From Spirochaetaceae bacterium (lineage in GTDB: Bacteria; Spirochaetota; Spirochaetia; DSM-27196; SKKC01): a stretch of 39,730 nt of DNA. Within the stretch, counting starts at the first letter, position 1, and the number at the start of each line of letters is the position of its first letter. The stretch is from the NCBI GenBank assembly GCA_007694005.1, contig RECN01000068.1:1-39730 (forward strand), in the 5' to 3' direction. The notes beneath the pieces are model-generated. The model saw nothing but the letters and a program-made list of their open reading frames with translations, searched no databases and was not told where the DNA came from. The position numbers were made by a program, and so were the translations under genes. Of the stretch, positions 34,670-39,730 are shown one piece after another.

Positions 34670-35308
34670 ATGCCGGATAACAGCGATCTCGTACGAGAGG
34701 CAGTCAGGAAAGGACTTCGCTCGAGATCTGTCGTCGACGCCATGAAGTCGGTCGACAGGCGCTTGTTCGTCGGTTCGGATGCGCGAAGCCAGGAGCTCGC
34801 GTACAAGGACGCACCGGTTCCTATTGCCGAGCGGCAGACAACCTCCCAGCCGTCGCTGATCGCATCCATGCTGGAAGCTCTCGCCATACAGCCCCACGAA
34901 CGCGCCCTCGAGATAGGCACCGGATACGGTTACCAGACCGCGCTTCTGTCTATCCTGTGCCGCGAGGTCGTGTCGGTCGAACGCTTCGCCGAACTCGCCG
35001 AACGCGCTGCAGCGAACCTCGAACGCTGTGGCATGCGGAATGTCATTGTGATACAGGGCGATGGTGGCCTTGGTGTTCCTGAGCATGCCCCGTACGATGT
35101 TGTCATTGGTTCAGCGGCCGCCCCGGCGGTACCCCCACCTTTCGTGGCGCAGCTTTCCGAGGGGGGCCGTGTCGTGATCCCCATAGGCCCGGGTGGCCAC
35201 GAGCGCGTATTGCTGTATCGGAAGACCGGTGGCGAGTTGATCGAGGAGCGCGTGCTGACGCAGGCCCGCTACGTGCGCATGATCGGGGAACATGCGCACC
35301 CCGAGTAG
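34670..35308 (+). CDS. pcm: Protein-L-isoaspartate O-methyltransferase
   Basis: A 212-residue repair enzyme that methylates abnormal isoaspartyl residues in aged proteins using S-adenosylmethionine. The family blocks are RRLFVGSDARSQELAYKDAP, PIAERQTTSQPSLIASMLE, the SAM motif ALEIGTGYGYQTALLS, and VIPIGPGGHERVLLY. Start ATG 34670 is 11 bases after the quinone reductase stop with no good SD. It may be read through from that gene. Confidence 0.94.
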   Translation: MPDNSDLVREAVRKGLRSRSVVDAMKSVDRRLFVGSDARSQELAYKDAPVPIAERQTTSQPSLIASMLEALAIQPHERALEIGTGYGYQTALLSILCREVVSVERFAELAERAAANLERCGMRNVIVIQGDGGLGVPEHAPYDVVIGSAAAPAVPPPFVAQLSEGGRVVIPIGPGGHERVLLYRKTGGELIEERVLTQARYVRMIGEHAHPE

Positions 35309-35404
35309 GAACACAGAGAGGATGCCCCCGGGACGTTCGGACGCGGTATGATCCTTGCAAAGCGGGATTTTTTCAGTATGCTCGAAGAGGTGGAGGTGTT
35401 TGCT

Positions 35405-37024
35405 GTGAAAAAAATCGAGGCACTTTACAGGGATGCAGGGATTGTGGTCCGTACCAAGGCTCCAAACGTAGCCGTCGTACTCACGGTTGTCGCATTTCTG
35501 CTCCCGATAACCATCGTAAACGATGTACTGGACGGCCGAATCGTCAATGCAGCACTTACCACCGTTATCGAAGGAATTATCATCCTCTCGATTCTGCTCC
35601 TGTATAGAGGCCGTTTCCGCTCAGCAACGCTCATGCCTTTAGTACTTATAACGCTGGTGCTTGTGGTCCTGTCTGTAGTTATCGAGCCTGAATCTGCCTA
35701 TCAGGTCTACGTGATTACGGTGTATATGGTTCCTCCGCTTGTGCTCTCCCTCGTTATCAGCGAAACCGAATGGCACACGCTGGCCGTAATGCTCGTTGGT
35801 GTGGCCACAATCATTGCGGTTTCACTGTTTGTTGTCCGGCCTGTTTTATCGGCAGAAGAAGCGGCATTTGTCGTCACCCGACTCATGACCGCGACCGTCA
35901 TCTACATTCTGACCGGTTTCTTTGCGTTCCGCGTCGCCCGGGCGAGCCGCAGCTCAATGGAGCTTATCGAGCAGACTAACGTGAAGAACGAGGAATCGCT
36001 TCATTCCATCGCGAAGATCGTACAGGATGCCGATTCAAGTGTTGATGCCCTGCGTTCGGTAGAAAGCCAGTTCAATGCCGCAAAATCCGGAGCAGACGAA
36101 ATCCGTCATCAGACAAGCGCGGTGAATGAACGAATTGCCGGACTTCGCGAATCCGTGGACCAGGCTCTGTCCTTCATTCGAAAAACAGCCGACCGCGTTT
36201 CCGGATTCCATGTACAGGTCGATGAGCAGAACACGGTCGTGCAGGAGTCTACCGCCGCGGTGAACGAAATGTCTGCATCGCTTGACTCAGTTGCTGCAAT
36301 AACCAGCGAGAAAAAAGAAGCTTCCGAACGACTTGTGTCGATAGGCGAGGCCGGCCTTGAGGATCTCAACCGGACAACCGAAGCGTTTGAAGTCGTCGCA
36401 CAGGAAGTCGACGCGCTGCATGAGATAAATAAAATCGTCAGTGATATTGCAGCCCGGACGAATCTCCTTTCGATGAACGCCGCAATCGAAGCTGCGCACG
36501 CGGGTTCGGGTGGTCGGGGTTTTGCCGTTGTGGCCGAGGAAATTCGGAAGCTCGCAACGAACACAGCCGAGAACTCACGAGTCGTGTCAGAACGACTGAA
36601 AAAACTAATGGACACGGTGAAAAACACTTCGGGCCACGTCGAGCATTCGGCGAGCAGCATGGCGGAAATCGCTCGCGAGGTCCGGCTCGTGTCAGAAGCA
36701 TTTGCCGAGATCACCGGTTCAACAGCAGAGTTGAGCAGCGGTGGACGCGAAATACTGCAGGCAATGCAGGCGCTTCAGAACAGCTCGGTCGCGGTGCGGG
36801 ATGGCTCGGATGAGATCGCCCAGGAGCAGGGCCTCGCAGCGGAGCAGATCGAAAGCATAAACACGATCACCGAAAAGATCAGTGCCGCTGCACTCCAGAT
36901 GGATCAGTCGCTCGACGCGATTGGCCGGTCGATGGATGACCTGCAGGAGACCATTATGAGCGGTACAAAGAAGACTTCGGCGTTGACCGAGTCTATTGCG
37001 CGTTTTTCTACGAGCCAGTCCTAA
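35405..37024 (+). CDS. Methyl-accepting chemotaxis protein
   Basis: A 539-residue chemoreceptor. The longest frame starts at ATG 35348, but GGAGG (35392-35396) stands 8 bases before GTG 35405 and nothing precedes the ATG, so GTG is chosen. The first 180 residues contain about six membrane helices without a large periplasmic domain, so it probably senses membrane or internal signals. The cytoplasmic part is a long coiled coil with the highly conserved tip IVSDIAARTNLLSMNAAIEA, then GRGFAVVAEEIRKLA, which contacts CheA/CheW. No obvious HAMP domain or C-terminal CheR/CheB peptide. It follows pcm by about 96 bases. Confidence 0.93.
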   Translation: MKKIEALYRDAGIVVRTKAPNVAVVLTVVAFLLPITIVNDVLDGRIVNAALTTVIEGIIILSILLLYRGRFRSATLMPLVLITLVLVVLSVVIEPESAYQVYVITVYMVPPLVLSLVISETEWHTLAVMLVGVATIIAVSLFVVRPVLSAEEAAFVVTRLMTATVIYILTGFFAFRVARASRSSMELIEQTNVKNEESLHSIAKIVQDADSSVDALRSVESQFNAAKSGADEIRHQTSAVNERIAGLRESVDQALSFIRKTADRVSGFHVQVDEQNTVVQESTAAVNEMSASLDSVAAITSEKKEASERLVSIGEAGLEDLNRTTEAFEVVAQEVDALHEINKIVSDIAARTNLLSMNAAIEAAHAGSGGRGFAVVAEEIRKLATNTAENSRVVSERLKKLMDTVKNTSGHVEHSASSMAEIAREVRLVSEAFAEITGSTAELSSGGREILQAMQALQNSSVAVRDGSDEIAQEQGLAAEQIESINTITEKISAAALQMDQSLDAIGRSMDDLQETIMSGTKKTSALTESIARFSTSQS

Positions 37025-37060
37025 GGGCATGCGTTCTACTTCTTTCGCCTGGAGATATTG

Positions 37061-38308
37061 ATGAAGCGGCATCGCCGCAGAGAGACACGTGCGTACCGCT
37101 GGCTACACGACATCGTTCGTCCGTGCATACGCGTTCCCATGCAGTGGTATTATCGAATCCGGCCGGAAAACACGGACATCTTCCGGCGTGTTCGCCCCCC
37201 GTACATAGTCATACCCAATCACGTCATGACCTGGGACCCGCTTCTCGTAAGTTTCTACGTCAGGGATCCTGTACACTTTGTGGCCTCGGACGCGAACTTC
37301 CGCAGCTCCTTCGCGTCGTGGTGGCTCAGGCGCTTTGGCGCCATTGCCAAATCGAAACTGCGGGACGATTTTGGCACGCTTCGCACTATCATGGACCTTC
37401 TGCGAGAAGGAAAGGTTGTCGGACTCTTTGCCGAAGGCGAACGGACCTGGGATGGAATCACCCTTCCCATCATCCCGTCGACGGCAAAGCTGATAAAAGC
37501 AGCAAAAGTGCCGGTGATCGTGCCGGTTCTGAAAGGGGCTTACCACTCGCTTCCACGATGGGCGTTCAAGTCGCGCCGCGGGAGGATCGAGATCGATTAC
37601 CGACTCGCGCTGACCCGAGACGAGGTCCTTCTCATGAGCGTGGAGGAAATACGGGTCAGAATAGAGCAGGTCATGTACCACGACGAGGACGCATGGCAGA
37701 GCGAAAACCCGACGGCTTTTACCTCTAAGCGTGCCGCTGAGCCCATGCAGCTGCTGCTGTTTTACTGTCCGAACTGCGAAGGTCTGAACTGCATGGGCAG
37801 CAAAGGAAGGCGTGTGTTCTGCACCGCGTGCGGGTACGAGGTTCATTTTTCGCTGCATGGGCGATTCCTGCCGGGCCGGCCCTCAGAGTCACGACGCGTC
37901 GTCTACGAGACGATAGGGGCATGGGCACGGGCGCAGGACAGTTTTCTCGACACGCATCTGAAGGAACTCGTGTCCAGAGCGGACCGTTCACCCGCTGTGG
38001 AGGCGGAGGATCCTTTGGGCCCCGAGGTCTTTCACGACGAACACGTCCGACTCTCTATGGGGTATCGCATGGTGCGTCCGGCAGTCCAGGCTCACGGAAG
38101 GCTTACGCTTCATGTCCGCGGCCTGAAGTTCACGTCTGTCGACGGTGAAATCATCCGCTATCCCTGGAATTTAATCAGCGGCCTGAATGTGGTGTATCAG
38201 GCACAGCTTGAGTTCTATCACAAGCGGAGGCTGATTGTGTTCGAGTTTCCCGGACGTGACACATCCGGCTACAAGTATCTGCTCTGCGGATGCAAACTCA
38301 TGAACTAA
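37061..38308 (+). CDS. PlsC-like acyltransferase fused to zinc ribbon and PH/GRAM-like domain
   Basis: A 415-residue protein. ATG 37061 is supported by GGAG at 37051. The acyltransferase domain (residues 40-215) has the HX4D motif NHVMTWD (His54, Asp59), the FAEGERTW block (125-128 EGER) and the PSTAKLIKAAKVPVIVPV block of 1-acyl-glycerol-3-phosphate acyltransferases. A zinc ribbon follows at residues 236-257, C-x2-C then C-x2-C (Cys236, 239, 254, 257). After that, residues about 318-410 show HVRLSMGYRMV, HGRLTLHVRGLKFTSVDG and RYPWNLISGLNV, a PH/GRAM-like pattern that may bind lipids. It is probably a peripheral membrane enzyme. Its stop overlaps the opposite EAL gene by 4 bases. Confidence 0.88.
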   Translation: MKRHRRRETRAYRWLHDIVRPCIRVPMQWYYRIRPENTDIFRRVRPPYIVIPNHVMTWDPLLVSFYVRDPVHFVASDANFRSSFASWWLRRFGAIAKSKLRDDFGTLRTIMDLLREGKVVGLFAEGERTWDGITLPIIPSTAKLIKAAKVPVIVPVLKGAYHSLPRWAFKSRRGRIEIDYRLALTRDEVLLMSVEEIRVRIEQVMYHDEDAWQSENPTAFTSKRAAEPMQLLLFYCPNCEGLNCMGSKGRRVFCTACGYEVHFSLHGRFLPGRPSESRRVVYETIGAWARAQDSFLDTHLKELVSRADRSPAVEAEDPLGPEVFHDEHVRLSMGYRMVRPAVQAHGRLTLHVRGLKFTSVDGEIIRYPWNLISGLNVVYQAQLEFYHKRRLIVFEFPGRDTSGYKYLLCGCKLMN

Positions 38309-39730
38309 ATCGGCTCAGGCCGACCGAAAAGGTACCCCTGCACGATGTTGCAGGATGTTGATTGTATCGCGCTCAGTTGTGCGGCGTTTTCAACACCTTC
38401 GGCAACGAATTTGTGACCGAATGCGTCAGCTATAGAACACATAGATCGGAAAAGGCCCAGGGATTTACTGTCGTGAGCGATATTAGACACGAAGGACTTG
38501 TCGGCCTTTATCTCACTGATCGGGAGTGTACCGATGTAACTCAGAGATGAGTAACCGGTACCAAAATCGTCCAGGGATGTCTGTATGCCGCGTAGCGAGA
38601 GATCACAGATCAGGGTCTCGACAACAGCCAGTTCCTCGATGAACAGGTCTTCGGTTATCTCGAAAATGATTCGCTCGGGGTCGACCGAAGCCTCTCGTAT
38701 AATGTCAAGCGAAGAACGTAGAAAGCCCTCACTCAAAAGTGCTGCCGGTGATACGTTAAACGATACCGTTATATCCGACCCGAACCTGGTATCGATTCTG
38801 TCAATTTTCTTGAGAACCGATCGCACTGACTCCAATGTAAACCTGGTTATCAAGGCTTTTCGGGTCAGTGCGGGTATAAAATCGCCGGGGTTTACGATCC
38901 CGAGGTCTGCATTTGACCACCGGCAAAGCACCTCAGCACCGACGACTTTCCTGCTCGACAGTTCAAACTGTGGTTGAAGCACGAAGGTGAACTCGTCGTT
39001 CAACAGCGCCTGTTTGATGTTCTGCTCAACGGCCTCTGTGTATAACAGAGACTCTTTCATACGCGGTGTGAACCATCGGATACCGCGTGTAGACTGAAAC
39101 GAGTCGTGTAGCGCGAGTTCGGCGTTCAAGAGGCACTCTTCGACCGTCGATCCGTCTTCAGGATACCGGGCCACCGCCTTATCGATCTCGATCGGTAAGC
39201 CGGGGGCGTTTGACTCAAGCATATCACGCGCGGCTGTTCGATTCTCGGTAAAAAAAGACGTGAGTCTTTCGGCCGTCCCGTGTGGATTCCAGACAGCAAA
39301 CTCGCCGCCATCGATACGTGCGATAAAGCCTTCGCCCACGTATTTCTGAAGCATCAAAGCCATGGCCTTGAGCTGGGCTTCGGCAACTTCCGAGCCATAC
39401 AGGACTTTTGTGAGTCTGTACTTGCGTATCTCAAGGATCACTATGAGACCCTGACTGCATACTCCCGTATCGATTTCTTCCTGTATGCTCATCACGAATC
39501 TCGACTTGTTCGCAAGGCCGGTCACAGCGTCGAAAAACGCAATCTGTGTAATCTTCTGATTCTGGACGACGAGGTCCTTGTTGCTGTTCAACAGATGAGA
39601 ACGCATCCGACCGATGAGCGTTATTGCGATAACACTAAACCCGGACAATGCAAATGCGTGAATGATCCACTGGAAGAAGTCCGTCTGGCGCTCGAGGACC
39701 GAAGGCGGGATAACGATTACGCTCTGACTG
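38305..39730 (-). CDS. EAL phosphodiesterase with degenerate GGDEF (5' end outside window)
   Basis: The last 475 codons; the frame stays open to the right edge, so the start lies beyond the window. A membrane helix WIIHAFALSGFSVIAITLIG is near 39610-39680. A GGDEF-like domain follows (AFFDAVTGLANKSRFV) whose signature is DGGEF, with two changed residues, so cyclase activity is doubtful. The EAL domain keeps AEVLCRW (EVL for EAL), FEITEDLFIEE, DDFGTGYSSLSYI, IKADKSFV and VAEGVEN. These are the metal and substrate residues of c-di-GMP phosphodiesterases, so it probably breaks down c-di-GMP at the membrane. Convergent with the PlsC-like gene. Confidence 0.92.
   Translation of the reverse strand, partial: SQSVIVIPPSVLERQTDFFQWIIHAFALSGFSVIAITLIGRMRSHLLNSNKDLVVQNQKITQIAFFDAVTGLANKSRFVMSIQEEIDTGVCSQGLIVILEIRKYRLTKVLYGSEVAEAQLKAMALMLQKYVGEGFIARIDGGEFAVWNPHGTAERLTSFFTENRTAARDMLESNAPGLPIEIDKAVARYPEDGSTVEECLLNAELALHDSFQSTRGIRWFTPRMKESLLYTEAVEQNIKQALLNDEFTFVLQPQFELSSRKVVGAEVLCRWSNADLGIVNPGDFIPALTRKALITRFTLESVRSVLKKIDRIDTRFGSDITVSFNVSPAALLSEGFLRSSLDIIREASVDPERIIFEITEDLFIEELAVVETLICDLSLRGIQTSLDDFGTGYSSLSYIGTLPISEIKADKSFVSNIAHDSKSLGLFRSMCSIADAFGHKFVAEGVENAAQLSAIQSTSCNIVQGYLFGRPEPI

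Follow-up and report, generated by a model that had tools for sequence, protein, structure and literature searches.

The ORF at positions 37061–38308 (+ strand) of the 39,730-nucleotide stretch of DNA analyzed here (the window) encodes a three-domain acyltransferase of 415 aa, in which a PlsC catalytic domain is followed by a zinc ribbon and a C-terminal barrel of the PH superfold. This enzyme is a member of a widespread spirochaete family, and the data make a strong case for a functional link between the family and a permease. The architecture, the fold, the conserved catalytic residues, the neighbourhood and the co-occurrence link come directly from computation. Taken alone, the enzyme is a new architecture of a known kind of enzyme; together with the permease it forms a candidate two-gene lipid system. 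As a tentative reading, for which we would give somewhat less than even chances, the pair re-acylates lysophospholipids and works like LplT-Aas, built from other parts, with the recycling of damaged membrane lipids as a possible purpose.

The acyltransferase gene and its surroundings

The ORF begins with ATG and has an alternative in-frame TTG at 37058; a GGAG read directly from the sequence at 37051–37054 (+), 6 nt before the ATG, is a possible ribosome-binding site. The homologue in the sister genome (G001) is 83% identical at the aa level over its full length. Comparison of the two genes gave dN 0.096 and dS 0.70, showing that the acyltransferase gene is under purifying selection. By part, pN was 0.074 for the PH domain, 0.069 for the PlsC domain and 0.154 for the ribbon plus linker, i.e. 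the constraint on the PH part is about that on the PlsC part and is weaker in the ribbon and linker. The signal for the three-domain architecture was far above that expected by chance.

The window is an entire contig (C198) in a 3.9-Mb genome of 204 contigs. Upstream of the acyltransferase, a chemoreceptor-type gene (MCPsignal by Pfam; 35348–37024, +) ends 36 bp before the ATG, and downstream a GGDEF-EAL gene (Pfam; 38305–39729, −) abuts the stop codon and runs off the contig. From position 35000 to the stop codon of the enzyme (38305), the window and the sister genome are colinear. Beyond that point the sister has a convergent permease, whose frame touches or overlaps the end of the enzyme frame, whereas the window has the GGDEF-EAL gene in its place and the permease is not adjacent. 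The first 256 residues of the permease orthologue were located at the edge of another contig of the same genome (C67), 94% identical to the sister's protein; the remainder was not found in the assembly, where the sole match was a paralogue on C173. Within the sister genome, the protein most similar to the GGDEF-EAL product is 41% identical to it and is encoded on a different contig. The loss of synteny at the stop codon would be accounted for by any one of an insertion, a rearrangement and a break in the assembly.

The catalytic domain

A Pfam search of the window protein (E up to 1) returned PF01553 as the sole match (residues 42–153, E 2.8e-15, 56.7 bits against a curated cut-off of 23) and no PH, GRAM or bPH family; PF01553 was also matched by 35/35 members of the family alignment (E up to 1). 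By Pfam and structure comparison the domain covers approximately residues 20–217 (37118–37711, +). With VIA-align 2, residues 12–217 of the model were superposed on the Thermotoga PlsC (5kym) with Z 20.2 and rmsd 2.5 over 196 aligned residues; the first 41 residues of 5kym fall outside the alignment.

The catalytic HX4D motif is located at H54–D59 (37220–37237, +) and motif III at E125-G126-E127-R128 (37433–37444, +). In the family set of 139 rows, which includes the window protein, the histidine is kept in 138 rows, the aspartate in 137 and E125 in all 139. R128 is present in 87 rows, including the window protein, and is replaced in the other 52. The alignment of 35 members, in which the catalytic motifs and the four ribbon cysteines are kept, agrees with the larger set. 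Acyl transfer to a lysolipid is the predicted activity of the three-domain enzyme. Among NCBIfam models, the window protein matched NF006386 best (acyl-ACP--phospholipid O-acyltransferase; E 2.4e-11, far below the cut-off, over 143 of 1147 positions), a model for proteins in which a transporter, an acyltransferase and a synthetase are fused.

The zinc ribbon and the C-terminal barrel

An AlphaFold2 model based on the 35-sequence alignment had a mean pLDDT of 90.1 and a pTM of 0.87 for the whole protein. The zinc ribbon, at approximately residues 231–270 (37751–37870, +), carries one CxxC at 236/239 and another at 254/257 and was matched by both ribbon profiles and ribbon chains, the family profile finding RPB12-type ribbons at E 4e-4. 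All four cysteines (C236, C239, C254 and C257) are present in 138/139 rows; the two CxxC knuckles form the ribbon, with zinc as the predicted ligand. The sole tree row without the full set, L109 (G181), also has no match to the PH profile, yet lies next to a permease. Between ribbon and barrel, the alignment and the model place a linker helix (residues 285–309; 37913–37987, +) with conserved W288 and Q292.

The PH-superfold domain occupies residues 318–415 (38012–38305, +), as delimited by AlphaFold2 and structure comparison. In the model it consists of seven strands (322–335, 338–351, 354–359, 364–368, 372–378, 382–387 and 390–395) and a C-terminal helix (403–414). In VIA-align 2, whose list cannot exclude folds outside it, residues 314–415 matched PH-superfold chains with Z 11–12: the PH-GRAM domain of MTMR6 (Z 11.7, rmsd 2.0, 84 aligned), MTMR2 (Z 11.4, rmsd 2.3, 94 aligned) and the PH domain of Vps36 (Z 11.3, rmsd 1.9, 92 aligned). 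EVH1, RanBD and Dcp1 domains scored equal to PH-GRAM against the same residues. Foldseek alone listed PH-containing chains without ranges, e.g. the SPT16 double PH domain at E 8.3e-4. The C-terminal profile (A3) matched 131/139 rows at E 0.001, and PH and GRAM were absent among the 25 of 55 Pfam families listed for the 35 alignment members. The enzyme is thus a bacterial protein whose PH-superfold domain goes unrecognised by Pfam. The mean net charge of the PH part is +1.7 (131 rows), which is not markedly basic.

The original prediction, made from the sequence before these comparisons, had described a complete PlsC domain, a two-knuckle zinc ribbon and a lipid-binding PH/GRAM-like region. The first two are borne out by the PF01553 score, the HX4D motif and motif III glutamate, the 5kym match and the cysteine conservation. 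The barrel, whose presence at residues 318–410 had been named as the decisive point, was found there in the model and in the PH-superfold matches. Lipid binding by the barrel is compatible with the fold but is not singled out by it, since EVH1, RanBD and Dcp1 match equally well, and the domain is not strongly basic.

Distribution of the family

A profile search found at least 150 enzyme matches, down to approximately E 1e-18, in at least 102 of 198 genomes, the genome of the window included. At E 0.001 the number of matching genomes was 131/198, a count that includes ordinary PlsC. Across the phylum, the C-terminal profile matched at least 52 of 392 genomes (at most 13 candidates scored per genome). 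In all 29 newly fetched loci (29/29) the protein carrying this domain also aligned with the full-length profile over almost its entire length; neither a stand-alone PH domain nor another host protein was seen among them. Two further copies of the three-domain enzyme are present in the genome of the window, on contigs C173 and C135. Outside the phylum, a scan with short exact peptide patterns, which finds mainly close relatives, gave one Bipolaricaulota contig (L046) among the matches found. The family had no match in plasmids at E 1e-10 or in PHROGs at E 0.01. What had been presented as a single odd protein is therefore not a one-off, given its presence in at least 102/198 genomes.

The same prediction had held that the enzyme is not the housekeeping PlsC, and this is supported by another PF01553 match in 28/28 chosen genomes. 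In 26 of these the other match is strong and its open frame does not exceed 347 aa; in the genome of the window the frame is 237 aa (C81). In G077 and G117 the best second match sits in a long frame, nominally 412 aa and 819 aa when measured from stop to stop. The possibility that the three-domain protein replaces the housekeeping enzyme as sole PlsC in small genomes was rejected on the same result in these 28 genomes.

Most N-terminal extensions in the long frames listed were read as out-of-frame translation, while two look real. At L046 (5365–6978, +), a phospholipid-methyltransferase (PEMT) domain, PlsC and the zinc ribbon form one chain, and a one-sequence search gave the region after the ribbon a weak resemblance to the PH profile (E 0.024). 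At L228 (4063–6480, −; G096), an 806-aa frame fuses a hydrophobic N-terminal half of approximately 400 aa to PlsC and the ribbon. No Pfam match explained this N-terminal half, and no relationship to the permease was detected (hhalign probability 0.2%); we read it as probably membrane-spanning.

Linkage to a permease

The most informative feature of the enzyme family is its linked permease, which lies outside the acyltransferase gene itself (37061–38308). In 154 loci (152 fetched stretches, the window and L046), a permease of approximately 476 aa was the commonest conserved neighbour, being found beside the enzyme in 50. It occurs in four layouts, upstream divergent (24), downstream on the same strand (21), downstream convergent (3) and upstream on the same strand (2).

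A permease profile (E 1e-20, at most 8 candidates scored per genome) gave 122 matches in 102 of the 198 genomes. Of these matches, 50 lie within 1.5 kb of an enzyme match, measured between match edges, and come from 47 genomes, 13 families and 27 genera; two of the 50 are halves of one gene (G002:C24). Presence and absence of the two genes were concordant. Among the enzyme matches listed, 95 of the 198 genomes have both genes, 89 neither, 7 the enzyme only and 7 the permease only; counted by genus, again among the matches listed, the numbers are 54, 30, 3 and 4. On nine contigs the permease matches are weak or partial and could represent true GltS or fragments; their removal changed the genome counts to 92, 91, 10 and 5. 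In eight mixed families (f8, f10, f13, f16, f25, f28, f33 and f34) every searched genome has both or neither, and five others (f4, f6, f30, f32 and f42) hold some genomes with one gene alone.

A FastTree phylogeny was built from 139 of the 155 enzyme ORFs in the 154 loci (at least 300 profile positions; the 16 partial ones were left out), several rows being on long branches. Permease adjacency was clustered in the tree yet widely spread, needing 15 changes, at least eight of them forced by supported branches. This count of separate lineages is rough, because in 27 of the 92 rows without a permease the contig ends less than 1.5 kb away, so that some of them may be false negatives. The two genes are neighbours in several layouts and in many families, and they are present or absent together; this is strong evidence that enzyme and permease act jointly.

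Relationships of the permease

Only one of four permeases tested reached the cut-off of Pfam Glt_symporter (PF03616; 26.2 bits against 26); one scored 18.1 and two were unlisted. No fitting NCBIfam name was obtained for the four. The AlphaFold2 model of the permease had a pLDDT of 85.2. In a structure comparison covering the top 1000 chains of Foldseek, the model matched AspT (8y1x) with Z 19.2 over 360 residues and CitS (9lsk) with Z 16.5 over 369 residues, and Na/H antiporters trailed at Z 8–10. Foldseek alone was weak, with a best E of 7.8e-3 to CitS and none below 0.001. On the basis of the modelled fold, the permease is a divergent elevator-type secondary transporter of the GltS/AspT/CitS kind. 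None of the curated models tried gives this permease family a name, and the link to the acyltransferase hints at what its role may be.

Other neighbours of the enzyme

An Lnt-type gene (Lnt by Pfam on one member) was a divergent neighbour in 13/154 loci, and an Lgt-type gene, assigned by our own reading, was nearby in 10/154. At three loci (L103–L105) the Lgt-type gene and the permease occur together, and at 0 of the 154 loci were an Lnt-type gene and the permease both beside the enzyme. The Lnt-adjacent tree rows fall almost entirely (11/12) in one clade that does not include the window copy. In the genome of the window and in its sister, another, short PlsC-type match lies approximately 1.2 kb from an Lnt match (C121 and C78), showing that PlsC-type enzymes outside the three-domain family can also lie near Lnt.

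A FeeM-like gene (N-acyl amino acid synthase; L111:2693–3406, −) lies directly upstream of the paralogue on C135. Such genes occupy the same place in L114 and L116, giving three loci in total (Pfam on one member, the C135 neighbour).

Several other genes recur beside the enzyme. A GAF-HD type gene is downstream in 20/154 loci, e.g. L088:9900–11186 (+) (Pfam, one member), and 10 of these 20 also carry the Lnt-type neighbour. A chemoreceptor gene was found in 7/154 loci in mixed layouts; a relative of the chemoreceptor-type gene of the window is also directly upstream of the enzyme in the sister genome. By our own reading, 10/154 loci have a HisRS/HisZ-like gene. At L079 and L080, whose enzymes are closely related to the window copy, an MFS transporter is convergent to the enzyme (L079:5974–7164, −, and L080:4916–6106, −); it was rejected as an LplT stand-in, the nearest NCBIfam model being TsgA, far below cut-off.

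Proposed function and alternatives

According to one report (PMC11416262), lyso-PE is what remains of PE once Lnt has removed an acyl chain. In E. coli, lysophospholipid is carried inward by LplT and re-acylated by Aas, and LplT binds Aas at its transferase domain to form a complex. The same report leaves room for further lysophospholipid transporters in other microorganisms. In the present study Lnt_N matched 197/198 genomes, and the LplT model matched 0/198 at E 1e-20, the E. coli control being found. NF006386 was over its cut-off in 0/198 genomes, with the E. coli control also below it, which makes this second negative a weak one, and the matches listed cover its second half only. The spirochaete enzyme–permease pair could be filling the place of LplT-Aas.

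In the mechanism favoured here, the enzyme would be a peripheral inner-membrane lysolipid O-acyltransferase with the domain order PlsC, zinc ribbon, PH-like barrel. The permease would deliver lysophospholipid, e.g. that left over when Lnt N-acylates lipoproteins, to the cytoplasmic face, where the PlsC active site would restore the missing acyl chain; the ribbon and barrel would anchor the enzyme at the membrane or on the permease. The parts that we infer are the location at the membrane, the substrate, the direction in which it is transported and the docking role of ribbon and barrel. The points counted for this reading were the permease link, the Lnt- and Lgt-type neighbours, the absence of LplT, the NF006386 match and the L228 and L046 fusions. 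Counted against it were the nearest solved folds of the permease, AspT and CitS, which carry acidic amino acids or citrate and not lipids; the lack of any locus with both Lnt and permease; the FeeM-like neighbour at three loci, which points to aminolipids; and the window copy, which adjoins a GGDEF-EAL gene and not a permease. In approximately half of the 198 genomes Lnt is present and both families are absent, showing that spirochaetes can do without the pair.

The catalytic part is also compatible with a second, regulated lysophosphatidic acid (LPA) acyltransferase that makes phosphatidic acid like PlsC, its barrel sensing the membrane and tuning activity, while the permease serves another need of the regulon. 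The best solved match is an LPA acyltransferase (Thermotoga PlsC, Z 20.2), and the motif III arginine is kept in 87/139 rows, the window protein among them; however, that arginine is missing in the other 52, all 28 genomes checked already have another PF01553 match, and the tight co-occurrence with the permease is left unexplained, making this explanation doubtful. If the permease instead supplied an acidic amino acid or dicarboxylate as head group, the enzyme might be an OlsA-like O-acyltransferase for amino-acid lipids, acting on the product of a FeeM/OlsB-like enzyme. In the OlsA/OlsB pathway an N-acyl amino acid is made by an OlsB-like enzyme and is then O-acylated, and a FeeM-like gene is directly upstream at three loci, including the C135 paralogue. 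The likeness of the permease fold to AspT and CitS also fits, as does the 1/4 permeases that reaches the Glt_symporter cut-off. Such a gene was nevertheless present in only 3 of 38 examined neighbourhoods with the enzyme, none of them permease-adjacent, and not beside the window copy; we regard this role as unlikely.

Two further explanations were considered. The enzyme could chiefly control the permease, with ribbon and barrel binding it and acylation setting its lipid surroundings. The co-occurrence fits this, as does the fact that the PH-superfold matches include the protein-binding EVH1, RanBD and Dcp1 domains, as close as the lipid-binding ones. Conservation of H54, D59 and E125, each in at least 137/139 rows, and the enzymes beside Lnt that have no permease argue against it, leaving it improbable. 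An acyltransferase of the lipoprotein pathway, acting directly with Lnt or Lgt on e.g. a lipoprotein or glycolipid and not on free lysophospholipid, would account for the Lnt-type (13/154) and Lgt-type (10/154) neighbours. Most family members, however, lack such a neighbour, and 11/12 Lnt-adjacent tree rows fall in one clade apart from the window copy, so that this role appears slightly more improbable still.

Re-acylation of lysophospholipids with the permease is retained as the preferred, if tentative, reading. Its most specific form is a spirochaete lipid-salvage module in which lysophospholipids would cross the inner membrane through an elevator-type transporter with the GltS/AspT/CitS fold and pass from it to a PlsC enzyme docked by ribbon and barrel; we consider this full version rather doubtful. 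If true, the permease would represent a new structural class of lysolipid transporter, in a previously undescribed module standing in for LplT-Aas. Searches of the open-licence literature for plsC with zinc ribbon, for bacterial pleckstrin homology with acyltransferase and for Spirochaeta sodium glutamate symporter found nothing. For spirochete PH/acyltransferase, GRAM with plsC and spirochaete lysophospholipid transporters, the titles and abstract openings were not about this enzyme family.

Comparison with known systems

The enzyme shares its catalytic fold, HX4D motif and motif III glutamate with the PlsC/AGPAT family (PF01553; Thermotoga maritima PlsC, 5kym), from which it differs by the added zinc ribbon and PH-like barrel and by a motif III arginine that is not invariant in its family. 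The C-terminal domain has the seven-strand barrel and C-terminal helix of PH-GRAM and GLUE domains (MTMR2, MTMR6, Vps36, EAP45; Z 11–12); unlike these, it is bacterial and has no Pfam PH or GRAM match at E 1. OlsA-type O-acyltransferases of aminolipids belong to the same PlsC family, and the FeeM-like neighbour at three loci is a further point of likeness; the zinc ribbon and PH-like domain of the window protein, and its gene context, differ. The permease has the fold of the GltS/AspT/CitS elevator transporters (AspT Z 19.2, CitS Z 16.5), but in sequence it is at or below the Pfam Glt_symporter cut-off.

The pair constitutes a concrete candidate, widespread in a group in which LplT was detected in 0/198 genomes, and carries a testable prediction. 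As in LplT-Aas of E. coli, a PlsC-type transferase is linked to a membrane transporter, possibly with a connection to Lnt. Unlike Aas, the window protein has no acyl-ACP synthetase (AMP-binding) domain by Pfam and NCBIfam and has the extra ribbon and PH-like parts, and its predicted spirochaete partner is of the elevator type, whereas LplT is an MFS transporter.
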